Shown here in pieces: positions 18,266 to 56,810 of a DNA stretch of 64,000 nucleotides (its first letter is position 1; each line of letters starts with the position of its first letter). The notes beneath the pieces were generated by a model that did not search any database, was not told the origin of the DNA, and saw only the letters and a program-made list of their open reading frames with translations. The DNA is from Zygnema cylindricum (lineage: Eukaryota > Streptophyta > Zygnematophyceae > Zygnematales > Zygnemataceae). Both the position numbers and the translations under genes were made by a program. Location: the NCBI GenBank assembly GCA_037447655.1, contig JBBHKE010003572.1, positions 186,001 through 250,000 of the forward strand, written 5' to 3'.

Positions 18266-18311
18266 CCCTTATTCAGTGGTTAAGTGCCGTGGAATAAGAG
18301 GTTTCAGTTTA

Positions 18312-18321
18312 NNNNNNNNNN
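18312..18321. other. Assembly gap (10 N) between the two copia copies
   Basis: Ten unknown bases. Copy I ends about 45 bp to the left and copy II begins about 65 bp to the right, each breaking in a different domain. Order and distance across this point are not reliable. Confidence 0.99.
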
Positions 18322-18369
18322 TGCGCTTTGGCGAAAGATGTGGCAACCTACGTTTGGATGTGTAAGCAT

Positions 18370-19863: not shown

Positions 19864-19968
19864 ATAAACCGTAGTATGACATCCCCAAATTCTTAAATGA
19901 TAAACTGTTGGCTTTCTCCCACTCCATAACTCCTCCGGTGTTTTCCTTCCGGAAACTGAAGTGAGTCT

Positions 19969-22383: not shown

Positions 22384-22416
22384 ACGCTCTCTCTATATCC
22401 AAAAAAAAAGACACTA

Positions 22417-28663: not shown

Positions 28664-30403
28664 GACCTCTATAGGTCCTTAGAATGTGCAGTTCACACGA
28701 AGCTCATAGGATAACTCTAACCCCTTTGAGTTTCAACAATAATAACTACCACCCTGGCGAAAAAAACCCAGACCACCTTCACCCCTGTGAAGAGAAGACT
28801 CCCTTAAGTCGATAACAAAATGAATCTTTAAATTTTCTCCCCTGAGCAATATTTTATGAAGGTTCTGTTGTCCATAGCCTATTTCAGCCATAGATTACTC
28901 ACGAAAAACACCCACATATTACCCCAAAAAACTTGCGTTTCAGACAACACAAACAACTCCACAATAAATAAAAGCAGTTCAAACTGCACTAATATGCACT
29001 ATATATTAGAAAATACAACTTCTAAAAATTAGAGGCAGATCTACAAAAAAAATCTAAAAGATATGAGCTCCAGAGTATCCCAAAAACAACTCACAGTTTA
29101 TAAAACTAACTAGTTAAACGTCTCACAAAATTCTACAAACAGTACTATAGAGTAGTGTACACCACAAATTGTAATTAGAGTTAAGAAGAAAATAGAGTAA
29201 AAAAACAAGAAAAAACTGAAACTTTGTGTGCTCCATCGCCCACAGAAATCACAAATCCAAAAGAAGCTAATCTAGATAGTGCCGACTCCCACTTGATATA
29301 AACCTAAATTATTGACCCTTTGACAATCAAAACCCTATTGTAGCTTCACCGTTTTGAAATAAGACTTTCTGTGTGCTCGGTTCCACCACAGAATGCAAAG
29401 GTAGAATATGAGTTTTGAACACATTCACCCACTTTAACTTTCCCTTAGAAATGCAGCCACCCTGGTAGAAAACAACTCTGACCGACTAAACCACTGTGTA
29501 GATAGGACTCCCCTGAGTCCGCAGCAAAAAAAATCACTCAAAATGGTCAAGTAAATTAATTGTTATGGTTGGCCAAAGTTTGCCTTTTATACAAGATGCT
29601 CTCTGGGAGAGGCGACTACCTACCCAAGAAATTCTAAGTCCTATTCTCTCTCTAAGACACAATCTACTGACGTACAGCACCAATCACTTTACTGTACTGT
29701 ACAAGAAAGTACAGGTGCCGATGTAGTTTCTGTACGACCATCGTACGATATGGCTGAAATGTCGAAACACGTCATATCCCTATTTGTTCCTGTAATCTCC
29801 GGAGTTGCCGCAATCCAATGTTGACGTTCCACGTGTCACTTGATGTGGTGATGGCCGTAAAACGTTAAAAGTACATATCTCGCGTTCGCGGCGCCTATCG
29901 TGGCTGTCCGATCAAATCCGGCTATAATTTTAGCTGTTGAAAATAGCCGCGCAATATTTGTTTCGTGTTCGAAACAAATGCGCGATATCCGTTTCATACA
30001 ATATATAAAACCGTACTCTGTACTAATCTATAATGTAACTATGCACTACGTTTATATTTCTCTTTAAATGAACTAGTCTTCTTCTAACTATTTAAATACA
30101 TAACAAACCCTATATGTAGTAGCACTAGTCCTAAGCTTAATGGACAAAGCTATCGGCTATCGAAATCTTGACGGACGATAGGATCCAAGATCAAATCATG
30201 GATCCGTCAATATCCATTTTAGTAAACCTACCATTTATCTACACCTGTCTCTTTGGAGAGCTTAGGAAGCCATGGCTGTAGCTCCCTTTCCAGCCTTCAG
30301 TGACTACAACAAGTGTGGAGGCTTGGAGAAGGGAGTCAGAGGCAGACTGCCTCTGCGCTTTTTCTATCCTAATAAAGACCTAGAAAATACTCATATATCA
30401 ACA
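28664..30403 (-). repeat. Full-length LTR of copia family F in reverse orientation (probable solo LTR)
   Basis: On the minus strand it starts TGTTGATATATGAGTATTTTC and ends near CCTATAGAGGTCTTA. It matches the LTR at 50.8 kb in its first and last parts and the one at 46.4-47.5 kb in its middle, so it is the longest LTR of the family (about 1.7 kb). It includes the antisense tRNA-like block and a CTTGTATAAAAGGC promoter. Neither a primer site nor a polypurine tract adjoins it. Around 29158 it includes a family A-like left end (ACACCACAAATTGTAATTAGAG). Confidence 0.72.
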
Positions 30404-37697: not shown

Positions 37698-38150
37698 TCA
37701 CTTGTGGTATGTTTGACACTACGGCGTCTTCAACTCGTTGCTAAATCAGTGACGACAATCTGTCGTCGCTGAATCTTGAAATGGCTCTAGATACTTGAAC
37801 CAGCAACGACTAACATTGGTTGCTGAATTTAGCGACGACTGCGGGTTGTCGTTGAACCAAATTTTATTTGTAATATTTTTTTTTTTACATGAATTAGGAC
37901 TGACATTTTTTTTTTTTTTTTTCACTTGTGGTATGTTTGACACTGCGACATCTTCAAGTCGTTGCTAAATCAGCGACAACAATCTGTAGTCGCTGAATTT
38001 TTAAATGGCTCCAGATACTTGAACCAGCAACGACCAACATTGGTGGCTGAATTTAGCGACGACTGCAGGTCGTCGTTGAACCAAATTTTATATGATATTT
38101 CTAATTTTTTTTTTATGAATTAGGACTGACACTTTTTTTGTTTTTTTTTT
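37698..38150. repeat. ~224-bp tandem duplication within the transposase intron
   Basis: TCACTTGTGGTATGTTTGAC begins both units (37698 and 37922). Each unit contains an imperfect palindrome of the AGCGACGAC..GTCGTCGCT type and ends in a T-rich ATGAATTAGGACTGACA. The second copy leads into the pyrimidine tract of a 3' splice site. Confidence 0.8.
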
Positions 38151-38175
38151 TTTTTTTCCTTTCCTTTCGTTGCAG

Positions 38176-39970
38176 AATACGAAAAAGCAAGGCAGTGGTG
38201 GAAGGGTCGGGTTGCGACATTGAGAGACATACGGGCGACGAAACATACTTTGTCGTTTGCGGGATTTAGAAAAAGAAGTGTGGTGGTGACAAAGGCACTA
38301 CCGGGTAGGGGTAGGAAGGAATTTCCATGGGTCACAGCAGTGCACTCGGAGTTGGTGGAGGAGTTTTACCGCTTGAAGAAGGCGGGTATGAAAATGTCGG
38401 CAACCATTGTATGGACCATGGCAGCTGATATCATTAAATGTATGAAGGAGGAGAATAAGAGACTATTCATCGACAAAAAGGGTAAGGAGATGAAAATGAA
38501 AATGACAAAACGATGGACTCAACGGTTTTGCGAAAAACACAGTATTGTGACGAGGTCTCAAAAAAAAATTTACAATTAAGCCCGGAGTAGGAGGAATACA
38601 TCGAAAAAACAGTAGCGTATCACATGGGCGAATTAAAAAGAGGATTTTTATCGGGTAAATTTTTTGAACATTTGTACAACTCATTGCTATATGTTGTAAT
38701 ACATGTTACATATATTATTATAAATTTTGTTTTCTAGGGGTATAAATGCAAATAAGCGAATGAAAGTAGTTACCCCTACGATCATACTTTCCTGTCTTGT
38801 GTTTTTCTTAGAATTTTATGTGTTATTGTCATTATAGGTCGCTACAGCGAGGATCTAATCAAACACATGGTCCACCCCCACGTGATTGTAAATATGGATA
38901 AAAAATAGACATTGGGTTTTCGCGGGGATGAGGTGGTTAAATACGCGGATGTTATCGGAGGTGGAGAGTCGATGACTTTGATGGTTTGACTCACGGGCGG
39001 AGTGAACGCCCGAATTGAATCTCCTATGTTAATTGTCGCCAAAAAGCTCTGTAATTACCCGATCAAGGGCATCCACAATGACATACCAGTTGTTTTTCTT
39101 TTCTTATGTGTATTTTTCCTTAAAAATATTGACGTTATTGTCTAACTTATTCTCCCTTGTACTCCACACCCAAAAAATTATATATGGGGTGATATGTTGT
39201 TTATATTGACTTCTCCCCATACAATTGTCGCCCTCTTTCTCCCTCCCTCACTCAATATCTTTTCCCACTCGCTTCTGTAGGAGCTTGTTACCGTACCGGG
39301 CCGAAAGGTTGGAACGACAAGACGGTCTTCCCGCAATGGATCGCAAAACCGAGGTCATATCAAGGAGACCGCGATGGGCGTGAAAAGGTTATATTTGTGG
39401 ACAATTGTGGCGATCACAATTTGTCCGAGGAATTAAACACCGTTTTACGCGCAAAAAAAACAACACTCCAAGTTTTTCCTCCGTGTGCAACGCATTTAGT
39501 GCAACCTGCCGATTCATTTGTAATTTCTAAAATCAAAGAGGTGTGGTCAAGGAAATGGGAAGATTGGAAGATGAAGGGGGTTGAGAGCCACAAGTGGTCC
39601 TTACCTAGGGGCCAAAAATGGTCTGGTAAGTTAGTTGGACCGGGGAAAGTCTTTTTCTTAAAGTTGGCACGCGATTCCATACGAGAGGTGAACGAAATGA
39701 ATGACAAAAATGGCATGGGATATGCACGAAAGGCGATGATCCAATGTGGATTGTCATTAAAGGATGGCAAATGGGAGGAGAGCATGCTTACGCAAGAGTT
39801 GGAAGTCATAATAATGAAATGGCGAAATCATTTCGATGGCGACGAGGTGCCACCTCACGGGATCTACTCCAACTCCTTCGAGAGGCCGACATTCAAGAGG
39901 ATGAAGCCAGTCATGACGAAGACTTAGAGGAAAAAAGTGTTTATGAAGCACTTTTTAGAGAGGTGGTTTA
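38176..39970 (+). pseudogene. DDE_1 (pogo/CENP-B-like) transposase gene, exons with frameshifts
   Basis: Exon 2 starts after TTCCTTTCGTTGCAG. It encodes YEKARQWWKG, FPWVTAVHSELVEEF and WTQRFCEKHSIVTR, a helix-turn-helix of the CENP-B/Tc5 kind. Exon 3 begins after TTATTGTCATTATAG with YSEDLIKHMVHPHVIVNMD, giving the first catalytic Asp, but soon meets a stop. Exon 4 begins after CGCTTCTGTAG with GPKGWNDKTVF, VIFVDNCGDH (second Asp) and PPCATHLVQPADSFV (third acidic site). The C-terminus ends in an acidic tail in a shifted frame (DEASHDEDLEEKSVYEALF). Damage includes a frameshift near 38570, stops after NMDKK and LMV, and the C-terminal frameshift. It would act in the nucleus, cutting and joining transposon ends. 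The pogo-like placement rests on the motif order and is reasonably firm. Confidence 0.8.
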
Positions 39971-41165: not shown

Positions 41166-41517
41166 GACATCTTGTGTTGACACAATGTCGGTGCTGAATG
41201 GTGAAAAAGTCAAACATGTTATTGAGCGACGAAACCTTTTTGTCGTCGACTGGCAAAAAAGTAACACATACCATCCAGCGACGAGACAGTCTCGTCGCTA
41301 ATTACCTCTAGGGAGACAGATAGACAGTAAAAAAAGAGAACGACATCTTCTGTTGACACAATGTCGGTGCTAAATGGTGAAAAAGTCAAACATGCCATTG
41401 AGCGACGAGACGTTCTCTTCGTTGACTGGCAGGAAAGTAACACATACCATCTAACAACGAGACACTCTCGTCGCTAATTACCTCTAGGGAGACAAATAGA
41501 CAACAAGAAACTCAACC
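41166..41517. repeat. 176-bp tandem duplication with AGCGACGAGAC palindromes
   Basis: Units start at 41166 and 41342 with GACATCTT.TGTTGACACAATG. Each holds GAGCGACGA..TCGTCGACTGG and a tighter palindrome; in unit 1 this is AGCGACGAGAC-A-GTCTCGTCGCT at 41278. The second unit ends where the gypsy gag reading begins. Confidence 0.85.
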
Positions 41518-42676
41518 TAGAACTCTCAATTAAGCAAAAAGAGTTTGAGAAGGAACGTGCGAAGAGAACCCGGAGGCAGCAAGAACGCAGACAAGGAGGC
41601 GGAGGAGAAGACCGCACGCCAGTCACTAAAGACACCTATAAACCTACTCACCGCTCTGAAACGACCAAGATGTCTCAATCCCAGTTGAGACAAATCCAAC
41701 TTTCTAAATTTGATCGTGCTCATATATCAAATGAGCTAAAGGGGAAGTATACAACTGAGGGTTGAAAATGTGAGGCTTGTGGTTTCATGGGGCACAAAGA
41801 AGGGCAATGTTTCCGGAAGAATAGAGTCCCAAAAGACATGCTGCAATACGGGTTGTTCACAGGCGAAGGGGAGACAGTCGTTAATCCTCTGCCACTGCAA
41901 CTTTTATATCCACGGGAACGTCGATCACTCGGTGAACTTGGACCCAGTACTTTGACACAGGAACATATCATCCAGTAACAGAGCACTCAATTCGCCGCCT
42001 TGGCAGTAGAATTGGCTGCTCTCCGCATAGGATCAAATGCTCGCACTCCCCGACCTTTGACGCCGGCTCAGAAACTGCATAAACAAAAACAAGAACTGCT
42101 GCAAAAGCTGGTAGAGCTGGAACTGCAAACCATAGTGGGTGGTGATGATGATGACCTAATGGGATGGGATATGGAGCCTCCAAAGGCTCATCATGCTCGG
42201 ACATTTCTTACCGGAGCCTGGAACGTTGGAGTAGGGGACAATCGTAGGCAACTGGGACCTACAACGTCCTCTCAGAGAAGGGACGAACAATCGATAGAAC
42301 GAAGGGACCAAAGCCGTAAAGCTACCGGTCCTTTATCCTTCACACCCAGAGGAGTCCCCCTGAACGGTGACATAGGGCAGGGCCTAAAGCCGAATCATCC
42401 GCCTCCCCCAGCTCCAAAGAAATGTCCTTGTGGTTTCAAAAATTTTAAGAAACCCCAGCCGGAAAAAGATCCTTCAACCACTGAGACAGATCAAGAATGG
42501 TTCGACCGATACTTGGATGAAAGACCAACCACAGATCTGCTGATGTCACCTCCAACAGGGAATTCTGACGAAGAAAGTGAGGAAGCAAGGGGGGGGGGGG
42601 GAAAGAGAAATCAGAAGACAACGAATCACCCATTTCTTCGCCCAAAGCTCTCCCTCCTTCCTCCAAACCGGCAATA
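41518..42676 (+). pseudogene. Ty3/gypsy gag, C-terminal part
   Basis: The frame starts without capsid, in a Lys/Glu/Arg-rich coil (KQKEFEKERAKR). It passes TGA at 41763, then a CCHC zinc knuckle CEACGFMGHKEGQC that would bind the element RNA, and a TAA at 41976. A 225-codon open stretch (42000-42677) follows with coiled coil, Asp-rich VGGDDDDLMGWD and Pro-rich PPPPAPKKCPCGFK segments. The N-terminal capsid and the 5' LTR are absent. The left edge abuts a tandem repeat unrelated to gypsy, so the element is 5' truncated. Confidence 0.75.
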
Positions 42677-43423
42677 ATGCTAGTACGGCACTTAATGCCC
42701 TACGCTCTGACTCACGTCAAAACGCTAGCCTCATCCCACAATTTGCCCGAACAAACACTCATACAGGCATTAGAGGACGAGATTCACACAAGGAGGGAAA
42801 AGGTCGCGTTGGTAGAACCACCAAAGACAAGCATCATGGCGGTTGAACCAAGAACCTCTATGTCGTATAGAGATTATAAGACCCTGTCGGTGGCTCTTAT
42901 TCTTAACAGGACGAGAAATTTTAAACTCAATGAATACGGCGGGTATCACGATATTGTGGTAGACACCGGAGCCCTCCCAAATTTCATAACCACATCAGCA
43001 TTACAACAAATGCCCAAAGAACTCCGACCGAAAATCAGTCCAAGTCACATCTGCCTGAGTAGAGTCAGCAGTGGGAGCCAACCAGTATACGGCATCATCA
43101 AAGCAATGGAAATCAAATTTGCTGATGACGCAAGCCATTACGCACTAATTTTACTCCCTTTCTTAGTGGTGGAAGGTAAGCAGTTCAAAATTTTGCTGGG
43201 TATGGCTACTTTGACCAGGTTGAATATAGAATTGAGGGTGTGGAAGGAAGAGATTACAGTTTCAGACCCGGAGGACCCAAAGGGCACCAAAGTGGTGGTT
43301 CCCCTGGATTTATGGAACCGGGGGAAAACAACTATTTCGGTATCTAGATGCTATCCCGAATACTCTGCATCAACACCTTCGGAGCTGTTTGGAGACTCCA
43401 CAGATATTGCTGACTCCATATAG
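42677..43423 (+). CDS. Gypsy aspartic protease domain ORF
   Basis: A 248-codon frame, uninterrupted, from an ATG shortly after the gag stop and in a different frame. Residues about 95-105 read IVVDTGALPNF, the catalytic DTGA of retropepsins. FKILLGMATLTRLN at about 175 is the ILLG flap-closing segment. The N-terminal 80 residues are helical and charged and belong to the gag-protease spacer. The protease would cut the polyprotein within the virus-like particle. A second, antisense copy of the same domain lies at 50.4-50.8 kb. Confidence 0.85.
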   Translation: MLVRHLMPYALTHVKTLASSHNLPEQTLIQALEDEIHTRREKVALVEPPKTSIMAVEPRTSMSYRDYKTLSVALILNRTRNFKLNEYGGYHDIVVDTGALPNFITTSALQQMPKELRPKISPSHICLSRVSSGSQPVYGIIKAMEIKFADDASHYALILLPFLVVEGKQFKILLGMATLTRLNIELRVWKEEITVSDPEDPKGTKVVVPLDLWNRGKTTISVSRCYPEYSASTPSELFGDSTDIADSI

Positions 43424-43599
43424 CAATTCCCTATTTCCAAACGGTGGGAAAGGGAGGATCATAATAAATTGGTACAGATGGCCACACATCAGCGGGAAGT
43501 GGACAAAAACTTTGCTGCCATACCGCACGGAACAGCAAAGGTTCTCCGGTCACAACTTTCGACAGTTTCTCAAAATGGGAAGGACTTCAATCGACAATT

Positions 43600-44605
43600 G
43601 GTGTCACTAGAGATCTCGCCCTCAGGACTCATGATTCTATCATTATTTTTTGGCATCAGTTCCGACCAGAAGCCGTTTTGAAAGCTGGATACAGAGTAGA
43701 AACAAACTCGGCAATCGAGATTGACACGGACGCCCGTGCAGTCAGCCAGTATAGACTACAGCATCTTCACCAACTTTACCCACAGCAACTCCCGATATGT
43801 GCCATGTCTAACTCTCACCGCAAACTTCCCCAGAATGTGGACAACATCACCAGTCCACATTTGGAAAAGCTTGGACTAGTATATCTAGTGGTCGCTGGAT
43901 GGCCATGCCAAGGGTATTCGTTAGCAAGACAGGGAACGGGAAACTAGGATGTCTGTAACAGAACATTCTTCTAGATAATGCTACTAGTAACAGAGATACA
44001 GAAACATCAGGACACGCCAGTGGGGTACGTCCTCGAAAATGTTCACCCCACAGATGATAAAAGAAAACAGGTGGTAAGCAGCTAGAACCAAGTAACTCAG
44101 GTTCTGGGGACTCCCATAGTTTTTGACGCAGCTCAGATCGGATCAAGAACCCACAGAGTTCGGGCTTATTGGACCAACTTGGTTCCTCTTCCTATCTCCA
44201 ACAGCTGTGGAAAACAAAGGTTCCAGATCCTAGCATCATAGTTCAGCAGATTCTCGGACCAGGGCGAATGGCCACCTCCGTGACCAAAGCCGCTTGAGCA
44301 CCCTTCTTCTGTTGCAACCAACCCGAGAATCCGCGGAAAGCCCTACCAACATTAGTATCATTCCCAACAGCCATGCTTATCGGAAGGGAGCACCAGGAAT
44401 GATATTTGAAAGAATAGCCGCTACGTGGACAACACCAAGTATTGAAGAACGGGAACAAGCAATGGGATTTTAACAGGGAACCACAACAGCACCAAGAGTC
44501 TCAGTCTCAAAAAGGTGTAGATTGATTGGGCAAAGTATGGATTTGAATGCAATTTCATGGGTGTTGCAGCATTCTCAAGCATTCTCCAGCCTAGAATCTC
44601 TAAAG
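43600..44605 (+). pseudogene. Cytosine-5 DNA methyltransferase embedded in the gypsy pol
   Basis: C5-methyltransferase motifs follow in canonical order between protease and RT. Motif I, the SAM pocket: ILSLFFGIS near 43630. A frameshift follows. Motif II: KAGYRVETNSAIEID. Motif IV: VVAGWPCQGYS near 43890, whose Cys is the catalytic nucleophile. Motif VI: YVLENVHP near 44025. Motif VIII: DAAQIGSRTHRVRAYWTNL near 44125-44180. A target-recognition-like part and EEREQAMGF follow, then motif X: GQSMDLNAISWVL near 44530. The HRxRxYWTNL and REQAMGF forms resemble the DNMT3/DRM type of de novo enzymes more than DNMT1. Damage: one frameshift after motif I, stops before motif VI (TAG), between VI and VIII, and after MGF, plus a shifted stretch. 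DNMT-bearing retrotransposons are reported from charophytes and dinoflagellates; this copy is dead but complete in layout. Confidence 0.85.
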
Positions 44606-44821
44606 CCACTACTCTGCAGCTTGAGGGGGGGAGAAAGGCAAGAAGAGAGAAATTCACAAAATTACATTCAGATAATATACTGAACCCAGGACCTTCCTTA
44701 GTTGGGGGGGGAGAAGGCTTAGAACAAGAAATTGTCAGTAACAGTGTTTTTACAGCCGAGCAAGGGACAGATCCACTGGTAGAGCTTTAATTCCACATCT
44801 CCCTCTGGGGTCGACCGCCGG

Positions 44822-46330
44822 AAGCATGGGCTGCAGTGGAACTCGGAAAGATGGACTGGACTCTAAGGGAACAGTTAGATCCACATCAAAAGGCTCGACT
44901 TTTCAAGCTATTAGAGGAGAACCGGCAGGTGTTCTCTTGGTCTGACACAGATATATGAATCTATAAGTGGACCATTTTTCGGATAGATCTGACCAATGAG
45001 ACGTCAACTATTTGGCAAAAACAGCATCCTCTCAGCTTCAAAGAGAGGGAGATCATCACCGCAAAGGTGCAGACTTTGGTGGACGCAGGGTTTGTGCAGC
45101 AAAGTACCAGGCTACATGGGTTTGCCTCTCCAACAATACTCCCACCAAAGAAAGATTCCTCCGGTAAAACTGTAGATTTCTGGATGTGTGGAGACTATCG
45201 GATGCTCGACACGCCAACTGTTTCCGATTGTTATCCAATGCTTACCCCGGAAGAGATCTTCCATTCTCTTGCTGGGGCCACCATTTATTCAACGTTGGAT
45301 ATGAAGAATGGATTCCACCATATTGCAATGGAGCCAAAGCACCGAGAGAGGACAGCTTTTTGGGCAGGATCCAGGTTTTATGAGTGGCTGTACATGCCAT
45401 TTGGTCTCAAAAATGCACCAGCAAAATCCCAACGGGCTTTGGACGAGGCCCTCCAGGGAATTGATTTTGCACGGTGTTAAATCGAGGATGTAATCATTTT
45501 CTCCAAGACATTCGAAGAACACTTGGAGCATATACAGATTGTTCTCCGGGCTCTCCAAGCAGCGGGCTTGAAGTGCCATCCGGGGAAGGGAATTTTTGGG
45601 GTGCAGAAAATCATTTATCTGGGTCATGTGGTGACTCCTAGGATAGTGGGTCCTCACATGGTTAAGGTGGCAGCTCTCGACGCACTTCCACCCCCGGAAG
45701 ATATTTCTGCCCTCTGCACCTTCCTAGGTTTGGCCAACTATTACCAGAGGTTTATTCCCGAATTTAGCAGCCACGCCCAGCCATTGAATCAATTATTGCG
45801 AAAGGACCACGAGTGGCAGTGGGCACAAGAACAGCAAATCGCTTTTCAGTTCTTGAAAGACTCCCTCAAGCAACATCCAGTTCTCCGGATGCCCGATCAC
45901 CAGCCACCTTTTCTCCTTTATACTGATTTGAGCAGGTTCGGATTGGGAGCAGTGTTGGCTCAATTGGACGATGCAGGGGCGCAGTAGGTAGTGGCTTACG
46001 CAAGCCAAACAATAACAGAGCCGAGGGGAATTACTGCAGTGACCACGGGGAATTACTCGCCGCCGTATGGGCCATCTAGCACTTCAGGCCTTACCTCTAT
46101 GGAGTACACTTCACCCTCATTACGGATCGCCAGCCCCTCAAATGGATAATGGAGAACAGTAAGTTGACTAGCAAGTTGGCCAGATGGGTTTTCATCTTGG
46201 AAGAATACAATTTCAACTCAATCCAGCGAGCAGGGGAGATTCATGGGAATGCAGACGGACTCAGCAAGAATCCAGACCCTTCAACTAGAGACTCTACTGT
46301 AGAATATGAAAGCTTTAGTCTCAGTAGATG
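44822..46330 (+). pseudogene. Gypsy reverse transcriptase and RNase H
   Basis: Follows the methyltransferase. It opens with EAWAAVELGKMDWTLREQL and FKLLEENRQVFSW, the usual pre-RT segment of Ty3/gypsy. RT palm and fingers: WMCGDYRMLDTPT, YSTLDMKNGFHHI (first Asp), FYEWLYMPFGLKNAPA. The YxDD box is broken: *IEDVIIF with a TAA in place of Tyr and the first Asp as Glu. Then YLGHVVTPRIVGPH, FLGLANYYQRFIPEFS and the RNase H start LLYTDLSRFGLGAVL. RNase H continues in shifted frames with VVAYASQTI, ITDRQPLKWIM and GNADGLSKNP. At least four stops or frameshifts. Confidence 0.93.
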
Positions 46331-46368
46331 AGGTTATGAGGAGGAAGTTAAAGGTGAAAAGGAGCAGC

Positions 46369-47512
46369 TGTTAGGACTGCGATGTCAAACTAGCGCAGCG
46401 TAGCAGTATAGCAGTACACGCTGCACTTTGTATTCATACTGCGCTGCGATGTCAAACTAGCGCAGCGTAGAAACATAGCATTACACGCTGCATATTTTTC
46501 TGGGTGCACGAAACTAAATTTTCGCGGGAGTGTTGTTTTGAAAAGTCAATTTCGTGCGTACAAGACACTTTGCCCGTAACTGCTAATTGGATCTAATATG
46601 GAGGTTTGAATAGATTCACGGATTGGGGGAGCGAACGGATTGATATAATTAAAGTGACGTAAAAGACTCATTGAGTGGTGTGAACAAGCTGTGACAAATG
46701 GACGGCGGATCGCGAAGCGATCCGATGTACAATAAACGGAATGTTGGAATAGGCGCCGCCGGTACTGCGTAGCTGCGACGCAGTAAGTCAACGCAGCTGC
46801 GGCTATTTGTATGATCCGTACGGACAAGCGCAACCAGCGCAGCCAGCGCAGCTGCGGATAATATGACTAGGATAGATCTCGAGTAATGATGATTGTACGG
46901 TAGTGGTAGCTTAGTAGTTGCTTAGTGGTAGCTTGGTTTCTGACAGACGAAGAGTGCGGTGTAAATATTATGTAAAACAAAGGTTTGTCCTATTAACTAA
47001 TTAGTTTATTAGAGTAGATACAGTACGGCTGGTATGCCTCCGTACTCTGAGTATAACTTGCAAGACTTGGATTATTTTATGTATCGCAATCAAGTTTATC
47101 AAAGCAATGGCAGACTGTTTTCTGCATCTTTGACCTGTTGGTGTGATCACTCTGTTTTGTGCTTTCATGTGAAACTTTGTGGAGTTATTTTATGATATAG
47201 AATTTATATGTGTGTCAAGTTTCATTGTATTCCAGTATCTCTGTAAGATTCTGTGAGCAGTCTAAGTGGTTAGTTTGTGAAGCTGTCAGCTGTTTTTGTG
47301 ATACTCTGGAGCCTATATCTTCTAGATTCCTTGGTGGATTTAGCTGTAACTTTGGGAGTTTATAGTGTATATGGTATACTGCTTATTAGTGCAGTTTGAG
47401 GTGATTCTGTTCAGTTTGGAGTAATCTGTGCTGTCTGAAACACAGCTGTTTTTGAGGTAGTCTGTGGGTGTTTCCGTGAGTAATCCATGGCTGAAATAGG
47501 CTATGGACAACA
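46369..47512 (+). repeat. Solo LTR of family F type, splitting the gypsy element
   Basis: It starts TGTTAGGACTGCG and ends GGACAACA. It interrupts gypsy pol between RNase H and integrase, and gypsy coding resumes right after it. The right half (47270-47512) aligns with the middle of the reverse LTR at 28.9-29.1 kb (GAGTAATCCATGGCTGAAATAGG region). No primer site or internal domain is present, hence solo. Flanking 5-mers (GCAGC, TCTAC) do not match. Confidence 0.7.
46377..46500. repeat. ~62-bp tandem duplication at the solo LTR start
   Basis: CTGCGATGTCAAACTAGCGC begins both units, each ending in an ACACGCTGCA segment. Confidence 0.85.
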
Positions 47513-48790
47513 TCTACAGGGGCTCAGCACGATGAAGACCCGGAGCTCATCTTAGGACTTATCCGGGCTTCCTCCGCCTTCATTTGGCTACCTCGGACCT
47601 GTCAACTTTTTTGGTGGACTTCGAGGGGCATGCTCCCATTGGATCTGGCCGCAAGAATATTTGAAAAGACACCGATTCCCTCCAGTCCATCCTGAATGGT
47701 TCCCCTCTTCCTCAGTTTGCCGGGAGTCATTTTTCCCGTGTTCAGACCCGGATGGCGGGGTATGAATTGGACCGAGGCATTCTTCTCAAAAAATGGGCTG
47801 ATGGGACGAGGAAAGTGGTTCGTCCTCTGACAGATCGGGAAACCCTTATTCTTCGACTTCACCAACAATGCAGGCACTTCGACAGAAACGAACAACCTCA
47901 CTGGTTACAGAGTCGTACTGGTGGCATGGGTTGCGGGCCCAGGTCAACCGTGTGGTGCAGACATGCCGTTCCTGTGACCAGGTAAAATCCGTCTTTGACA
48001 AAAAGGGTGGAACATAACTTCATTCTCTCCCCATCCGGGGGATGTTTTACAGGTGGTCACTGGATCTGCTAGTACCACTTCTAACCAGCCGGAGGGGAAA
48101 CCGCTTTGTTCTTGTAATGATTGAACACTTCTCCAAATGGATTGAACTGGTGGTTCTTTCCCGAAAGGAGTCAAAAGCAACCGCGGACGCATTCTTCTAG
48201 AGGGTGTTTTCCCAATTTGGGGCACCGGCCGAGGTTCTCACGGATTAGGGGTCCGAGTCTGCTAGAGAGTTTTCTAACATTCTAGAAAAGTGCCTCATTC
48301 ACCACCGTTTGACCAGCCGAGACCACACCCAAGCCGACGGTTTGGCTGAGAGGTGCGTACAGACGGTAAAAAGGTCACTACGAAAAAATGTCGTTGAAGA
48401 GGATTTGGGGAATGGGACAGACGAGTGCCTTGGATTGCCATGGGATACAGGTTCAGTAGGCAGGCCTCCCTCCACTCCAATAGCCCTTACTTCATTCTCT
48501 TCGGCCGACATCCCATCCTACCAGGAGCCGCCTCGGCTCAAGCGGTTGAGCTTGTGGAAATGGACTACCGGGGGACTGTCGAGAAACTGATTGCCGAACG
48601 GGCCAAAGTATTTCACCGGGAGATACCTCTAGCTATGGGCAATTTACAGGCTGCTCACCACAGGGATCAACTTTGGTATTTCCAACGCCAGAGCGGGAAT
48701 TATGTCCCACGGCAACGACGATTCGTATCCCTAGATTTTGTGTATCCCATGCAACAGAATAAGGATATTTTGGACATTTCGGCTGGATGA
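47513..48790 (+). pseudogene. Gypsy integrase
   Basis: The H2C2 zinc region is recoverable across frames: RLHQQCRHFDRNE followed by a CRSCDQVKS-type pair. The core follows with RWSLDLLVPLL (first Asp), VLVMIEHFSKWIELVVLSRKES, QFGAPAEVLTD then a stop at the second Asp neighbourhood, and HTQADGLAERCVQTVKRS (catalytic Glu). The C-terminal part reads PYFILFGRHPILPGAA and YRGTVEKLIAERAKVFH. Stops and at least three frame changes are present. Integrase would insert the cDNA in the nucleus. Confidence 0.9.
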
Positions 48791-49114
48791 GTGATACTGA
48801 AAGTAGTGGAGGTCTCAAACAAAGGGGTTCTTACCTTGGAGGGGAAGGATGACCGCAAAATTAAAGAAAATCAGATCAATGTGGCTCCTTGCCACCTGCG
48901 AGGGCTAGAAGACAAACCCACTTTCCACCTCACCTATTTTGCAGAACCACCCTCCTGTTCCTCCGCTTGCAATGGGTCCTCTGTGTCCGACCTTCTGCTC
49001 ATGTGCAAACACTGTCACCAAGGGTGGCATGACGGCTGTCTACCACTGAATTGGGAGCCCCGCTCTCAACTCGCAATTCCGTGGTTCTATAGGTACTGCG
49101 AATTTGGCCGCTAA
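48791..49114 (+). CDS. Gypsy Pol C-terminus: GPY/F-like module followed by a PHD-type finger
   Basis: A stop-free 107-codon frame in line with integrase after one TGA. The first 45 residues (KVVEVSNKGVLTLEG, INVAPCHLRGLEDKP) resemble the GPY/F module that ends many gypsy integrases. Where chromoviruses have a chromodomain, this protein has a zinc-finger pattern: CSSAC, CKHC, HQGWHDGC and PWFYRYC. Spacing fits a C4HC3 PHD finger, with one Cys of the last pair replaced by Tyr. PHD fingers read histone H3 tails, so a targeting role is plausible. It ends 35 bp before the polypurine tract. Confidence 0.65.
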   Translation: MILKVVEVSNKGVLTLEGKDDRKIKENQINVAPCHLRGLEDKPTFHLTYFAEPPSCSSACNGSSVSDLLLMCKHCHQGWHDGCLPLNWEPRSQLAIPWFYRYCEFGR

Positions 49115-49158
49115 TTTGTCTAATCCTCTTAGTCATACGCGACTCAAAGGAGGGGGGG

Positions 49159-50390
49159 TACGCGGTACTTCTTCTTTTACTCTCAATTCCTCATTATGAC
49201 CCATGCATATCTCTAGGGGAGGAAAGACAAAGAAGGGCATGGTCACGGGTCCGGGAAATCATCATCATTTGGGGTGGATGGCTGGTCTCTTATGCACACC
49301 TCGTAGGACATCTTACGTGAACCTCACGGTCCCCAGGCACGCTCGACAGCTATCAAGCTCGTGTGCATCTTCGGCACATTTGCACTCCCAAGAGTTTTAG
49401 GGCCTCGTTCCACCTTGTACGGACTTCAGCGTACGGAGAAGGGGGGGACAACCCGTCAGATCAAAACTTTGTATTTTTACCGAGGGGCACAACGCACTTT
49501 AGTTCACGTTAAACGCAGTCCGGTGCAAAGGTGGCGGCTCCATTACATGGCGTCCGTTCTATGTAGCTCTAGCGGAGGGGTACATCGTGGAACGGCACGC
49601 AGCCTTTAAGATTGTCCCGTAGATCTTGCTGTTAGTTGTCAGTACGATGTTAGTTCAGGTCCAACAGACGGGCAGAACATTAATGACACCGGGTCAAAGT
49701 TAGACGTTTCACGTTAATTCATAACTTTGTTGTTTACTTGTGTACCATAGGAAGACCTTTGGCTGTCGATTCAGTTGGAGCCAGTCGCCTAACTTTTTGC
49801 CATGAGTGAAGTACAGCCTAGTTTGTCTTCTGTCCGTATGATAACAATTGCTAGCCGCTGATTGGCTTTGAGCATTGCTTTGACTTTGGTAGATGCTATA
49901 GGACAGACTTTTGTTGTGTAAGACACTTGGGGCCGAAGGAGACAGGTTGCTTTTTCAGTACTGTCTCTTAAGAAAACCCCCAGAGAATTAAATCAACCTT
50001 TCCGTTGGAGAACTGTTGCATTGTGTCGTTGACTCTATTGCCATCTTTGTTTTGGATTTTCTTTTGTGGAGACAGTAGCTCGGGTGGGTGATTGGCACTA
50101 TCCTCTCTTTGGGCGGTTTGGACTTTCGCTGTTTGAAACTTGAAAGAGTCTTCTCGGATCCGTACGGCGAAACTGAGGGGTGAGGGAGACTCATACCGAT
50201 CTTCGGGGCCATTAGGAGTGTTTCCTTCTTCTGAGTTTGGTCATCGTTGCACTCCGCGGTATGTTCGCTCGCTTCACCATTATCATTCTGTTATATCTTA
50301 TTTCCATTCTCTGGGGCAAGATGATTTTAGAGCGGAACCTCCGAAGATTCCAACCGAGGTTAATTCCCCTTTACAAAAACAGCTGTCAAG
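49159..50390 (+). repeat. Probable 3' LTR of the gypsy element
   Basis: AAAGGAGGGGGGG at 49146-49158 is a polypurine tract, and the following TACGCGGTACTTC is taken as an eroded LTR start. The stretch is non-coding and gene-free. Its right limit is set only by the start of the antisense gypsy fragment. No second LTR is available for comparison. Confidence 0.5.
49295..49348 (+). repeat. Short repeat shared with the SINE tail
   Basis: GCACACCTCGTAGGACAT through ACCTCACGGTCC and AGGCACGCTCGACA matches 52208-52264 with few changes. No tRNA-like head precedes it here. Confidence 0.6.
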
Positions 50391-50776
50391 GATTTGTCCA
50401 CTTCCCGCCGAAGTTTTGTAATTTGTAATAATCTGTTCTGGTATCCCTCTTCCCACCGCTTGGAAATAGGGAATTGCTATATTATGTCTGCGATATCGGT
50501 GGCGCTGGCGAGCAGTTCCGTGGGTGTGTGGGTGGCATAGACGGGATAACATCCTAAGACAGGAGCATTAGCTTTCCCCCTATTCCATAGATCCAGGGGA
50601 ACCACCACCTTGACTCCTTCTGGATCCTCAGGATCGCGAACAGTAAACTACTCTTTCCACACACTTAATCCGATATTCACCCTTGTCCAAGTGGCCATTC
50701 CCATTAAAATCTCAAATTGCTTACCTTCCACCACCAGGTTGGGAAGCTGAATTTGGACCTTCTGACGCGCGTCGTG
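50391..50776 (-). pseudogene. Antisense fragment of the same gypsy family (protease end)
   Basis: Reverse complement aligns with 43160-43500 of the main element, including the TATAGCAATTCCCTATTTCC segment after the protease stop and the GGTAAGCAATTTGAGATTTT region. It is cut at 50777 by the start of a copia LTR, so the gypsy fragment was already here when the copia arrived. Confidence 0.85.
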
Positions 50777-51979: not shown

Positions 51980-52085
51980 TGGATTGGCACGTGAATGCCG
52001 GTTCAATACGGGGTAGAATGTGATACGTCACACTCGAAGCCGCCTAAAAAAAAGAAATAGGTACGGACCCGCCAGGCTCTACATC

Positions 52086-52264
52086 GAGCTGGTGGCACAG
52101 TGGTTAGTGCGCTGACAGCTCAAGTCAGTGGTCCCAGGTTCGAGCCCTGGCCGACTCACTTTTCCCTAGTATGGGACATACAGAATCCCGGATTTCATGG
52201 AAATAACCACACACCTTACAGGACAGTTTACCTGAACCTCACGGTCCCTAGGCACGCTCGACAC
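52086..52264 (+). mobile_element. tRNA-derived SINE (tRNA-like head 52086-52158)
   Basis: The first 73 nt fold as a full cloverleaf. The acceptor GAGCTGG pairs with CCGACTC (one mismatch, one wobble). D-stem is GCAC/GTGC, anticodon stem CTGAC/GTCAG, T-stem CCAGG/CCTGG with loop TTCGAGC, and discriminator A. Box A (TGGCACAGTGG) and box B (GGTTCGAGCC) for RNA polymerase III are intact. The anticodon loop AGCTCAA lacks the near-invariant U33, so a working tRNA is unlikely. The ~105-nt tail ends ACGGTCCCTAGGCACGCTCG and recurs without the head at 49.3 kb. The head-plus-repeated-tail layout indicates a SINE, inserted after the copia primer site. Confidence 0.65.
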
Positions 52265-52269
52265 TAGTA

Positions 52270-53160
52270 GTATCAAAGATGCGTCTGATGAACTCGAAAA
52301 GCATGATAAAGCTAGCTTGACACTTCAATTAGCTATTAATATGATTCAAGAGGAGTCTATGTCAAAGATGCTTAATAGAGAGAAGCAAGTAGAGGCCTTT
52401 AACACAAATTTTGAAAGGAAAGGTCAATTTAATCGGTCGAGAAATGAGCCAAGGAATCAGTTTAACCTGAATCTGGGTCAGTTTAAATAGTTTAATCAAT
52501 GGCAGAATAGACATTTTTTTACTTCTTGTTTTTATTGTTCAGAAAAAGGTCATGCATATAGGTACCATCCTTAACTCAAAAAATCAAATGAGACAGGTTT
52601 GTATAGGCCAGGTTGGCAACAACGTCAGTTTGACCAGGGCTTATTTGGCCAGCACTTACAAAACAACTCATTGTTATCTTCATCTATCACTCAAGAAAAT
52701 GAGTCTTTGACATTCAATCACCAAGATGAGTCGACGTTATTTGCAATGGCGGCAGCAATGGAGGGCTCAAAGGACGCCGGATGGATCATGGACACGGGAG
52801 CATCGGCTCATATGTGCTAAAACAAGACACTTTTCAGCAATCTAAAAGCAACACATGCAAAGAATATCTACTATGCTTGTGGCATGGGTGTCCAGACATC
52901 TTCTCAGGGTGATGTTTTATTGCTGGTAGTTGTAGGATGGAAGTCAGTGGAAAGAACCCTTCATAATGTCTTATATGTTCCAGACTTCAAAAATAATCTG
53001 ATTTCCACCTCTTTAGTTGAGAGCAAAGGCTTTGAGGAAATCCTTAAAGGGGGTAGGCAGGTTATGAGCAAGTTTGGTTAGATAGTAGTCACATGAACTA
53101 GAGATGAAAGCAAAATGTATCGCATGGATATGGCTGATTCTAAAGAAAACGATGTTCTCT
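52270..53160 (+). pseudogene. Copia gag end and protease
   Basis: Continues in an Asn/Gln-rich Gag C-terminus (KDASDELEKHDKASLTLQLA, MIQEESMSKMLNREKQ) typical of copia. A zinc knuckle is degraded at its last ligand (CFYCSEKGHAYRYH). The protease has WIMDTGASAHMC followed by a stop. LYVPDFKNNLISTSLVE closes the region. Several stops. Most of the capsid part is missing between the SINE and this segment. Confidence 0.88.
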
Positions 53161-53990
53161 ACTCTGGTGTATTATCTGCAAATGAATTATAGCATAAGTG
53201 GTTTGGCCATGTTAACTATGACAGTTTGACAAAATGGTTAAAACTCGCAAAATAAAGGGAATTTCTCTCACAGATCAGCCGGTTAAAACTTGTGATGGCT
53301 GCTCTTTAGGAAAGATCCATAAGCTGCCTTTTCCACAGGAATCATATCACATATTTACGAAGGTCTTGTAGCTAATCCATTTAGATGTTTTGGGACCGGC
53401 TCAGGTGCTCTCGGCTGGGGAAGTTCGTTTAATGGTCGCATTTACAGATGACTTCTTAAGATTCACAAAGGTGTACTTCATAAAAAAAAATAGTGAAGTG
53501 TTCGGCCATTTCAAACACTACAAAGCTTGGGCGGAAAAACTACACGGTAATCTTATTCTGGAACTCATATCGGACAATGGAGGAGAGTATATGTCAAAGG
53601 AGTTTGAAAAATTCCTTCTAGATGAGTGTATAAGTCGGCAGCTCACGGTTCATTTCACGCCTCAAAAAAATGGTGTTTCGGAGAGATTGAACACGACTGT
53701 TGCGAAATGTGCTAGATCTTTGCTTGCAGATAAGAATGTTGATATGAAATTCTAGGCTAAGGCCCTTAATTGTGAAATTTATATCAGAAATAGAATTGGT
53801 TCTAGGTCGGTTAGCTTCACACCTTTTGAAATGTGGACAGGTAGAAAACTTGAAGGAAGTCATTTCAGGGGGTTCGGAAGTAAATGTTTTATTTTGAACA
53901 CATCACCAAATACTTGGAAAATGGAACCTAAAGGTTTACTGGTATTCTTATGGGGTATGATGATAATGCAAAAGGCTACATGAGTATATA
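53161..53990 (+). pseudogene. Copia integrase
   Basis: Pre-integrase zinc region (WFGHVNYDSL, CDGCSLGKIHKLPF), then core motifs HLDVLGPAQ, FTDDFLRFTKVYF, LISDNGGEYMSKEFEKF and TPQKNGVSERLNTTV, giving the D, D and E positions. A TAG (F*AKAL) interrupts it after the core. The C-terminal GYD region is frameshifted (GLLVFLWGMMIMQKA). Confidence 0.92.
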
Positions 53991-54439
53991 TTTTTTATAA
54001 GCAAAAATCAATTGTGTCTAGAAACATTATTAAAGGAGGAGGAAGTTTCAGCATATCTATTTTGCATGACAAAAAAACAGGCAGAAAAAAAGTCACAAAA
54101 ATATGTTTTTTTTTATACACAGAGGACATTTTAATATCCAGTTGTTCAACAACCTCTTGGATATCCACTGTTTTGAAAACCTCAGGTTCTTCTTAAAACT
54201 CAGATAGAACATGCTGAACCACTCGAAGAGCAGACAGAACAGGTCAGAAAACAGACAAGGAACGCCAAACATCCATCGGTCTTCCCCTCAAAATTTCCAG
54301 GGGGAAGGAGATCTACCAACCGTCTACAATCCGGATCACACTTTGCCAACTCAGTCAACCCGGAGTAACCTTGGACCATCCGGGAATCCTTCTCTTCACC
54401 CGAAAAAACCCACTAGATTGAGGCGGCAAACAACGAACC

Positions 54440-55330
54440 AACAGGAAAGCCATTGGTAGCAAATGGGTTTTCAAAGTGAAACTGAACCTTGATGGCACCA
54501 TTAAAAGATAGAAGGCCAGACTTGTGGCCAAAGGTTACAATCAGAAAGAAGGAGTTGACTTTGAGGAGACCTTCTCTCTAGTGGTAAGGTTTCCAACTGT
54601 CAGAATTCTGGTAAGTCTAGCTGCAACTGAAAAAATGGAAGTACATCAAATGGATGTTAAAACAACTTTCTTTCATGGAGAACTTGAAGAAACTATTTAT
54701 ATGCAGCAACTAGAAATGTATGCAGAAAAATGAAAAGAAAAATGAGTCTGTAAATTGATGAAATCTTTGTATGGGTTGAAACAGGCCCCTAGACAGTGGA
54801 ACCTGAAATTAGATGAATTCCTAACTAGAGTAGGCTTGAAGAGAATCACATCACACCACTCTGTGTATGTTTTTTATGAGAAAGATGGTATACTTCATAT
54901 TGCTGTGTATGTAGATGATTTGTTGTTTATCAACAAATCTGTGGATGAGATAAATCGTATTAAAAAAGCCTATAAAGCCAGATTCGAGATGAAAGACCTC
55001 GGTGAGGCCAAAGATATCTTAGGGATAGAAGTAGAGAGTGATAGAAATAAGAAACTGATAATGTTAACTCAAAAGAAGGCTATAGGTTCCATGCTTGAAA
55101 ATTTTGATATGAAAGAGGTTAAAGGATGTGTTACTCTTATGGAATACCGATAGAAATTAGAAGGAAATGATTTTGATTCAGGTATTCTAGTTAGTGACAC
55201 CCTAGAGTCAAAGAAGGAGGATTTTATGGCCTTAAAACCATACACGCAGGTAGTTGGTAGCCTTATTTACTTAAAATGTGCACAAGGCTCGATGTTGCAG
55301 CTGCTATTGTTGCTTTAAGTAGAAGTCTGC
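54440..55330 (+). pseudogene. Copia reverse transcriptase
   Basis: Frames of 70 and 133 codons carry [53 protein letters not shown] and the intact active site IAVYVDDLLFIN, then MKDLGEAKDILGIEV. Stops at YAEK* and EYR* and a frameshift near 55270 disable it. The segment between integrase and RT (54000-54440) is a Ser/Pro/Gln-rich linker in broken frames. Confidence 0.93.
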
Positions 55331-55893
55331 AGAATCCAAAAAAGGCAGACTGGGAAGCTGCAAAAAGAGTTCTAAGGTATCTCGCACGAACTCAGAACCT
55401 GAAACTTGTCCTTGGAGGAGGAGAAGTCAAGCTGCAGACTTGAAGCGATGCGAGCTATGGCGACATGCCCAGCAGGAAATCAACTACTGGGTTCGTTTTG
55501 CAGATTGGAAATGGAACCTGCTGTTGGAGTAGTAAACTTCAGAAAGTCATTGCCCAATCAACCATAGAGTCAGAATACATGGTAGCAAGCTCTGCCCTCA
55601 AGGAACTCTTATGGGTAAAAGCCCTTTTGCACAAATTAGGACACATGCAAACTGGTCCTCGAGTCATCTGGTGTGATAATCAGGCAGCCATTGCCATCGC
55701 CTCCAATCCCAACCACCACTTTAAGAGGAAACACATAGATGTCAAACTGCATTTTGTCAAAGAAAAAGTGCTTGCCAAAGTCATTAAATTGTGCCATTTA
55801 CTTGATGAAAAAATGGTCGCAAATATGCGAACAAAAGCTCAACCTGCACCTAAATTACAGTTTTGCAAGAAAGCTATTGGGCTGAGTGAATAA
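55331..55893 (+). pseudogene. Copia RNase H
   Basis: DWEAAKRVLRYLARTQNL leads to a stop at the D of the first catalytic site region. An open 142-codon frame follows with RKSTTGFVLQIGNG, QSTIESEYMVASSALKE, VIWCDNQAAIAIASNP and FKRKHIDVKLHFVKEKV. It ends at TAA just before the polypurine-like TTTTGAGGAG and the LTR. Confidence 0.93.
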
Positions 55894-55916
55894 GTGAGTC
55901 TAAATCTTTTGAGGAG

Positions 55917-56810
55917 TGTTGGTTTTCAAAGCTTTGTCCTCAGTAGATAGATCTATGAGAGGGGATTTATAACTTAGAATAATTTTGGTAAAGTTGGGTG
56001 TAATACTTACCTCAAATAGTGTGATAGTGAAATGTTTAATCTAATAGTATTTTGTACGGTCACATTTACAAGCGTCGACTTTTCGGACAACGCAGAAAGT
56101 GCGGAATGGTCCTAGACACATGGCAGTTATCGGACAACTGAATTTGGCAAATCCAATGGACGGAAAATTAACAGGACATCCGGGAACACAATTGTGAAAG
56201 GAAAATACCAGACATTGATTTCTATCAGATCAACGGATGGAACTCAAGTGGGGACCACAGGTGACGAGAAGCCTAGTAAGCATTCCAAATTGTTGTACAG
56301 GATTACCACAACAAGATGGACGTATCTGATGTTTGCTGACTAAGCAAGCAACATTATGAGTACGACGTAAAATTGTAAATACCTAAAAGAACAGTTTTCT
56401 GTAGCGTAGTGCTTTAGTAAATAGTGTTTCACTATTTAGTTTTAGGTTAGTTGTAATTAGGTTTTTGGAAGTACGTTAGAGAAAGTTGTCGTACTATAGT
56501 ACAGTACTACTCTTTCGGGTACAGACACTTGATTGGCTAATGAGCAGTAGATGCTCACTCGGTGTATTAAAGTTTAAGACTTAGAATTATTTCAGTATCC
56601 AGTTTTGGGAATATTGAAAATTAAAAGGCATTTTTTAGGTAACTTGCAGTCTTTATATCATATGGTTTACTGGACCAAGTCTTCTTGAATTTTGGGAATT
56701 GACAGTGTGTATTGTGGTGTGATTGTATGCTGAATTTGATATAAATTGGACTTGTGAGTGTGGTTTTTACTGTTGAGAAAATTGTTGTTTGTAGGATTTA
56801 TGTTAGCTTT
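55917..56810 (+). repeat. 3' LTR of the + strand copia
   Basis: Begins TGTTGGTTTTCAAAGC right after TTTTGAGGAG. A block around 56500-56595 (GTACTACTCTTTCGGG, TTGATTGGCTAATGAG, AAGACTTAGAATTATTTC) corresponds to the promoter-proximal part of the 5' LTR. The rest has diverged so far that the two LTRs may come from different insertions. The right boundary is approximate. Confidence 0.7.

Follow-up and report, generated by a model that had tools for sequence, protein, structure and literature searches.

Transposons are usually silenced by DNA methylation, and for that reason an element that keeps a functional-looking de novo DNA methyltransferase (MTase) of its own presents a paradox. The closest described system is KnitGypsy-Dnmt3 of Klebsormidium nitens, an LTR Gypsy element of a photosynthetic host whose Pol frame includes a Dnmt3-type domain that evolves under purifying selection (de Mendoza et al. 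2018, PMC5890265). The same paper describes DIRS-like repeats in this element and reports that it showed no activity in a yeast assay, a result that the authors considered inconclusive. SymbioDIRS-Dnmt3 and SymbioLINE-Dnmt of Symbiodinium are likewise retrotransposon-borne DNMTs and illustrate recurrent capture, but they belong to the DIRS and LINE classes, rely on other integration machinery and represent independent captures (PMC5890265). A further paper states that some DNMT3 proteins sit in retrotransposons of streptophytes and dinoflagellates (PMC12344493). A first-pass annotation of the present DNA likewise remarked that retrotransposon DNMTs are known from charophytes and dinoflagellates. 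DNMT3 in a Gypsy Pol is already known as a kind. DNA-methylase transposons have been stated not to be present in land plants, such as tracheophytes (PMC6338049).

The window, the 64,000-nucleotide stretch of Zygnema cylindricum DNA analysed here, contains on its plus strand a Ty3/Gypsy Gag-Pol (41508-49111) consisting of gag, protease, MTase, reverse transcriptase (RT), RNase H, integrase and a degenerate PHD finger. The 3′ part of gag (41508-42677) was recognised by blastn and tblastn to the sister copies L101 and L106; it has a CCHC zinc knuckle near 41765 and matches the metagenome protein P0003 at 41697-41849. The 5′ part of gag is absent, the likeness to sister copies beginning at 41508. 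An aspartyl protease follows (42869-43420) within an open frame of 42581-43423; its Pfam match is sub-threshold (E 0.019-0.045), but it carries VDTGA at 42962 and is collinear with P0003. At 43421-43423 an in-frame TAG followed by CAA TTC forms a proposed leaky stop between Gag-protease and MTase-Pol, with a possible readthrough hairpin at 43427-43457 (fold z -2.28). The MTase domain (43634-44593), supported by profile, PDB and protein relatives and by a tree, is broken by stops and frame changes, as is the RT with RNase H at 44812-46298 (Pfam RVT_1 E 2.2e-12, RT_RNaseH_2 E 4.6e-14; collinear with P0002, also a metagenome protein). These matches bear out the first-pass reading of the flanks as gypsy gag/protease and RT. 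The Pol order protease-RT-RNase H-integrase and the Gypsy-type RT are those of Ty3/Gypsy elements, and the RT of the relative L048 has Ty3 RT as its best match among solved structures (E 2e-77).

An insertion of 1213 bp (46300-47512, plus strand), partly similar to window positions 28866-29137, separates RNase H from a broken integrase (zinc-binding and core parts, 47513-48413; collinear with P0002 and L101). The C-terminal region of the integrase (48413-49111) has at its end the degenerate PHD finger (48965-49090; Pfam PHD E 0.0041, under the cut-off). A probable polypurine tract and piece of a 3′ LTR occupy 49150-49348, the end being placed where the similarity between copies stops. L101, from the same genome, aligns to the window in two collinear blocks, 41508-46299 at 80.3% and 47513-49348 at 82.9% identity, which meet at the borders of the insertion with a 7-bp overlap; this two-block alignment identifies the window copy as 5′-truncated and as the carrier of a nested insert. 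P0002 is collinear with 43669-49099 and P0003 with 41697-45510. No LTR pair for the copy was found within the window. The window copy is dead: it is truncated, split by the 1.2-kb nested insert, and its reading frame is shifted or stopped within the MTase, the RT, the RNase H and the integrase. At 50388-50773 the minus strand carries a further, diverged piece of this family, which comprises the protease end, the TAG and the start of the linker.

Other features share the window. Pieces of a DDE_1 transposase lie at 38130-39927, directly upstream of the truncated element (PF03184 E 9.9e-10, with a weak Tc5 DNA-binding match), and a Copia element on the minus strand (16212-22392) has an 807-aa open frame and duplicated RT stretches, its protein drawing ten remote database matches of 20-35% identity. 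An RNA-family and tRNA scan of the window found one tRNA, unrelated to the element: at 52086-52263 lie a tRNA-Glu gene and, following it, a 54-nt match (87%) to the end of the element's 3′ LTR piece that is possibly a solo LTR remnant or a tRNA-derived repeat.

All seven C5-MTase motifs proposed in the first-pass annotation are present between protease and RT, in the proposed order: ILSLFFGIS (43634-43660), KAGYRVETNSAIEID (from 43681), VVAGWPCQGYS (43888-43920), YVLENVHP (44026-44049), DAAQIGSRTHRVRAYWTNL (44125-44181), EEREQAMGF (44444-44470) and GQSMDLNAISWVL (44528-44566). They cover 43634-44566 of the plus strand in more than one frame, motif I being in frame +2, followed by frame +1 to about 44220, a stretch in +3 and +2 again to 44593. 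The window MTase was also translated in a single pass as one interrupted protein in which X marks each stop or change of frame, and this X-joined reading matches the C5-MTase profile PF00145 at E 5.6e-6 (26.5 bits against a cut-off of 22); the four separate pieces searched against Pfam gave one weak PF00145 touch (E 0.1). A search of 5.8 billion proteins with the X-padded query returned 19 relatives, the best at E 1.9e-84. Precomputed Pfam lists place a retroelement Pol domain in 18 of the 19, the exception being P0009. A Pfam scan of 13 of them found Pol domains in all 13 and PF00145 at E ≤0.01 in 12, the match lying below the curated cut-off in P0010 and P0019; in the remaining one, P0004, the MTase is visible by alignment. 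Chance is excluded by the 19 relatives together with same-genome copies 79-91% identical over protease and MTase. We regard it as nearly certain that the region is a DNMT3-type MTase domain inside a Gypsy Pol.

The first-pass description of the motif forms as DNMT3/DRM-like stands in its DNMT3 part and fails in its DRM part. Among PDB structures, DNMT3A/B are the best solved relatives of the X-joined window MTase (E 1.7e-8), and profile A1 places DNMT3A/B/C first (E 2.3e-23), with HhaI (1.2e-10) and DRM2 (5.9e-10) far behind; no chain named DNMT1 is among the 57 PDB sequences matched by this profile. When the predicted fold of the L048 MTase (pLDDT 86.4) was searched with Foldseek, the best 50 of 193 rows with E ≤0.001 were all DNMT3 entries. 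The DNMT3 hallmarks of PC in motif IV, EN in motif VI, RxR in motif VIII and an unrearranged order I to X are all found. All 10 relatives in alignment A1 have PCQ, EN and HRxR without variation; outside it, P0005, P0020, P0040 and P0048 have WECQ for WPCQ, with the cysteine kept. A DRM type was considered and rejected, since it needs motifs VI-X before I-V and since DRM2 matches are confined to profile positions 8-139. The order I to X, free of the DRM rearrangement, makes the domain DNMT3-type and not DRM-type.

NG86 codon comparisons between copies show purifying selection on the MTase. Four close pairs, three of which have copies in common, gave dN/dS of 0.135 (L101/L106), 0.119 (L101/L085), 0.239 (L106/L085) and 0.132 (L108/L087), and in the near-identical pair L103/L104, with hardly any changes between the two, the ratio was 0.319. 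A further eleven MTase pairs had no usable dS, which was taken as saturation, and five, all with L068, were left out for a stop. For L101/L106, one pair for each domain, the ratio was 0.088 in RT and 0.073 in integrase.

The 352.8-Mb genome assembly (2689 contigs) contains at least 123 places that match PF00145 (all scored, of 782 candidates) and at least 117 matches to the L101 MTase protein (116 scored of 1897 candidates), both counts being lower bounds that favour well-preserved MTases. Among 30 loci taken from the genome, an MTase match is present in 29 (none in L073); protease lies upstream in 26 of the 29 and RT downstream in 24, or 25 with RNase H counted, and no other order occurs. Among 20 stretches of ten kb each, 12 of which are copies already present in the 30-locus set, protease precedes the MTase in every one and RT follows in 18. 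The protease-MTase-RT order is kept in other copies, including open ones (L101 and L106 past the stop, L103 in its entirety). Two further searches bear in part on whether family copies without the domain exist, a point raised in the first-pass annotation. A DNA query over protease and MTase gave at least 42 rows including the window (40 scored of 731 candidates), of which 36 span bases 3-1590 of 1621. An RT query gave at least 40 rows including the window (40 scored of 705 candidates); for 27 of these 40 an MTase match is listed at most 1.5 kb upstream and on the same strand, the pairing having used all rows of the DNA query and PF00145 and L101-protein rows hand-picked for the same contigs. 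The 13 copies with no listed match may be MTase-less, truncated or merely unscored. In the same genome, PF00504 has at least 88 matches (150 scored of 160 candidates), which shows that the host is photosynthetic, and chlorophyll a/b-binding gene clusters, on both strands, are found on contigs C519, C2590 and C1116.

The copies divide into two families. In family I, to which the window copy belongs, Gag-protease is followed by a stop and then by MTase-RT-RNase H-integrase-PHD-like. In L101 the frame stays open all the way past the stop (1520 aa, MTase to PHD), and in L106 the open frame that begins with the MTase measures 1525 aa, as does the reading that starts at its stop; their PHD fingers score 17.5 and 21.5 bits, under the Pfam cut-off of 24. 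In family II, L103 is a single frame of 2395 aa in which a gag knuckle and a protease, each weakly matched, are joined to MTase, RT, RNase H, integrase and a PHD finger of 38 bits, which passes the Pfam cut-off, as does that of L048. The family II protease is closer to that of L048, and family II copies other than L103 are broken to varying degrees. Matching end repeats occur in 5 of the 20 stretches, all of family II (L103, 434 nt, 100%; L107, 262 nt, 100%; L109, 366 nt, 99.7%; L110, 103 nt, 86%; L116, 224 nt, 96%), and no such pair appears in family I, whose stretches stop short of the element ends. These repeats are probably LTRs cut by the stretch ends, and their identity or near-identity indicates that some family II copies with long open frames (L103, L107 and L109) moved recently.

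The explanation that we consider likely is a multi-copy Ty3/Gypsy family with a captured DNMT3-type MTase in its Pol, Pol being made via a leaky UAG. In the open sister copies Gag-protease would end at the UAG, usually UAG CAA UUC, with a hairpin behind it. The majority of ribosomes would terminate at this codon, and a minority would read on to produce Gag-protease-MTase-RT-RNase H-integrase-PHD. Readthrough by such a minority would bring the MTase into the virus-like particle at Pol stoichiometry, beside RT and integrase, and the enzyme could then act on cytosines, probably in CpG, either in freshly made cDNA of the element or in the chromatin where it inserts. The PHD finger that ends the integrase may read chromatin as the chromodomain may do in chromoviruses, which are Gypsy elements with a chromodomain on the integrase C terminus; in both, a chromatin-reader-like domain occupies the same end of the integrase, the putative reader here being a PHD finger. 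Methylation of the element's own cDNA is a tentative proposal, held at somewhat less than even confidence. The MTase may instead have a putative role on host DNA at the insertion site, silencing neighbours or the element itself, or may guard against other DNA parasites. Action on chromatin is suggested by the PHD finger that closes the integrase, and an antiviral role has been proposed (PMC6338049). These other uses are likewise a serious possibility that stays a little on the doubtful side of even. CpG depletion was considered as a sign of self-methylation and rejected. The observed/expected ratio is 0.57-0.72 in the element against 1.12 in the rest of the window, and in 5.2-kb slices it is 0.54-0.90 for family I and 0.75-0.95 for family II, but window stretches with no MTase match are equally depleted (0.47 at 52001-56000 and 0.64 in a Copia piece at 1-1009).

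Relatives from elsewhere carry the domain in two placements. P0003 has gag-like sequence and then protease-MTase-RT in one chain, and P0002 has MTase-RT-RNase H-integrase in one chain. L048 (contig CADCWO010000201.1) has gag-protease-MTase in one frame, then TAG CAA TCA, and RT-RNase H-integrase-PHD in the same frame; its contig (1-9285) is titled as a Synechococcales bin and has two ends identical over 127 nt, from which we infer that the element is probably eukaryotic, was placed in the wrong bin and was closed into a circle by the assembly. In a sister lineage (P0004, P0006, P0007, P0010, P0011, P0013, P0014 and P0018) the MTase lies after RNase H, and integrase and PHD follow it as far as the protein reaches, P0006 and P0018 ending at the MTase and P0011 in the integrase. 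Past the PHD finger, the C-termini of P0007, P0013, P0014, P0016, P0017 and P0019 show DPWAGSG and SSPWF-like patterns, which we take to resemble an N6-methylase fold; a Pfam scan of all of these except P0016 found no match to the tail at 0.01, and a PDB search with the P0017 tail found nothing convincing. Viral contigs searched with one window piece gave no relative, and profile A1 matched 47 loci in them over part of the domain; in genome contigs the same profile found 19 loci, of which L048 alone is strong.

The two placements, before RT and between RNase H and integrase, may represent separate captures from related donors and not a relocation. The lineage with RNase H-MTase-integrase is set apart as one clade in the RT tree (99/99) and in the MTase tree (100/99, with P0005 and P0019), and more weakly in the integrase tree (85/93), as separate captures would predict. 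Against this, the retro-MTases cluster apart from human DNMT3A and a phage-like MTase (96/99), the MTase tree does not unite the protease-MTase-RT group, since P0048, from a liverwort, falls with the other lineage (95/83), and the terminal PHD finger is common to both lineages, so that separate captures appear possible but rather doubtful. In the MTase tree human DNMT3A joins the phage-like MTase; this row is the sole cellular eukaryotic one, the tree including no cellular plant DNMT3. The window MTase groups with P0001 and P0002 (97/87), and P0017 forms a long branch. The tree includes L049 and L004, and ORFs are also listed for L001 and L010. Two proteins of the liverwort Calypogeia fissa fall among the retro-MTases: P0048, with aspartyl protease and MTase in one chain, on a 66.6-Mb contig, and P0032, an MTase alone, on a 25-Mb contig. 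In Klebsormidium nitens P0084, a protease-like stretch that aligns to that of L048 is followed by MTase motif I, with no PF00145 called.

At the protease-MTase junction of family I, a stop is present in 24 of 24 copies (23 TAG, 1 TAA), followed by CAA in 22 and then by TTC in 22, and the 120 neighbouring codon positions have a mean of 0.08 stops and a maximum of 2 of 24. The 24 junctions comprise one from the window copy, one from the window fragment and 22 from the set of 30 loci. Excluded from that set were L073, which gave no match, L076, which lacks both protease and junction, and the family II loci L070, L071, L081, L082, L091 and L095. The junction was located by the best match to the window's 23-nt context, TAG included, a choice not blind to TAG; this best match always fell at the protease-MTase junction, which argues against an artefact. 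An in-frame stop in every copy, usually with CAA TTC, across two main groups that are 55-60% identical over 1.7 kb (eight copies compared pairwise) suggests programmed readthrough. Since the conserved in-frame stop separates protease from MTase, MTase and RT lie together downstream of it. The frame is the same on both sides, with 664 + 448 aa open in L108 and 279 + 1520 aa in L101. When the window copy is aligned with the window fragment, identity is highest in a 32-base stretch (31 of 32 identical, starting at 43418-43419) that covers the TAG, against 74% identity overall. A 5-pair hairpin lies 3′ of the stop in 12 of 12 sequences with one compensatory pair, a change that may be a single event. 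Single-sequence folds gave z of -3.2 for L048, -2.3 for the window, -1.0 for L072 and -4.0 for L096; the pairing is not identical in all, and the L072 hairpin (z -0.98) is not clearly better than shuffles. UAG CARYYA is the type I readthrough context (PMC5382211). The window family, with CAA UUC, matches five of its six bases, the last base being off; CAA UCA after the UAG of L048 fits it, but that stop lies after the MTase.

Programmed readthrough at the family I UAG is a reading that we hold with good, though not full, confidence; that family II of this genome has no stop counts against it. The UAG could instead be a true stop, Pol being translated after re-initiation in the downstream frame or by way of a spliced or subgenomic RNA; the window has a Met 19 codons past the stop, and P0001 and P0002, both predicted proteins, begin about as far ahead of MTase motif I. 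Both sides share a frame wherever both are open, however, which re-initiation does not need, and the CAA after the UAG and the hairpin are conserved, which leaves this route unlikely. The UAG might also be ordinary decay inherited from one dead master copy, the ancestral frame having run through, given that all copies are related and that protease runs into MTase without a stop in P0003 and in L103 of family II. This is improbable in view of a stop in all 24 copies of groups 55-60% identical with almost none at other codon positions, its retention by L101 and L106, which are otherwise open downstream, and the position of the block around it as the best conserved part of the junction. A host DNMT3 gene adjoining or interrupted by a retroelement, or an assembly join, which the broken frames might recall, is practically untenable, as the MTase adjoins protease or RT in the same order in 37 distinct copies of this genome and in independent metagenome proteins and the open 1520-aa MTase-to-PHD frame refutes it; the collinear L101 blocks and the single-chain metagenome proteins place the MTase within a Gypsy Gag-Pol, as the first-pass annotation had it, and not in a neighbouring host gene.

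If readthrough operates as proposed, a retrotransposon lineage of photosynthetic hosts may dose its own DNMT3-type MTase by recoding, the position of the MTase relative to the leaky stop setting its amount per particle, coupled to a PHD-tailed integrase. We give this wider proposal only a shade under an even chance. The MTase would be supplied at the Pol level in the window family, just behind the leaky UAG, and at the Gag level in L048, just before it; in family II it would be part of a single Gag-Pol frame, and in the sister lineage it would lie inside Pol, between RNase H and integrase. With at least 123 MTase matches, some fully open and some with identical end repeats, and with two families, one with a conserved stop and the other with a copy without it (L103), the question of Gag versus Pol level and that of the target are testable.

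Compared with cellular DNMT3A/B (PDB 6f57, 6w89 and others), which are nearest by profile and predicted fold and have the same motif order I to X, the open retrotransposon copies have no listed ADD or PWWP, the MTase is embedded in Gag-Pol, and the predicted fold of the L048 MTase matches at about 20% identity. Searches of the open-access literature found no report of a leaky stop between protease and MTase, of the UAG CAA UCA after the MTase of L048 or a second family without a stop, of a PHD finger with a retro-MTase or the RNase H-MTase-integrase order, or of bryophyte copies such as the liverwort protease-MTase protein. The Calypogeia fissa proteins bear on the statement that such transposons are absent from land plants (PMC6338049). 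KnitGypsy-Dnmt3 has the same Dnmt3 domain in a Gypsy Pol under purifying selection as the window family; in its published description no mention was found of a leaky stop, a PHD finger, two families per genome or the RNase H-MTase-integrase placement (PMC5890265), and the K. nitens model is a partial match, with 51% identity over 11% of the first query row. The junction itself finds its closest parallels among viruses. Murine leukaemia virus likewise has an in-frame UAG between Gag and Pol with a 3′ structure, and tobamoviruses, with UAG CARYYA, have in common with this family the CAA after the UAG (PMC5009743, PMC5382211); the window family, for its part, has CAA UUC and a simple hairpin.
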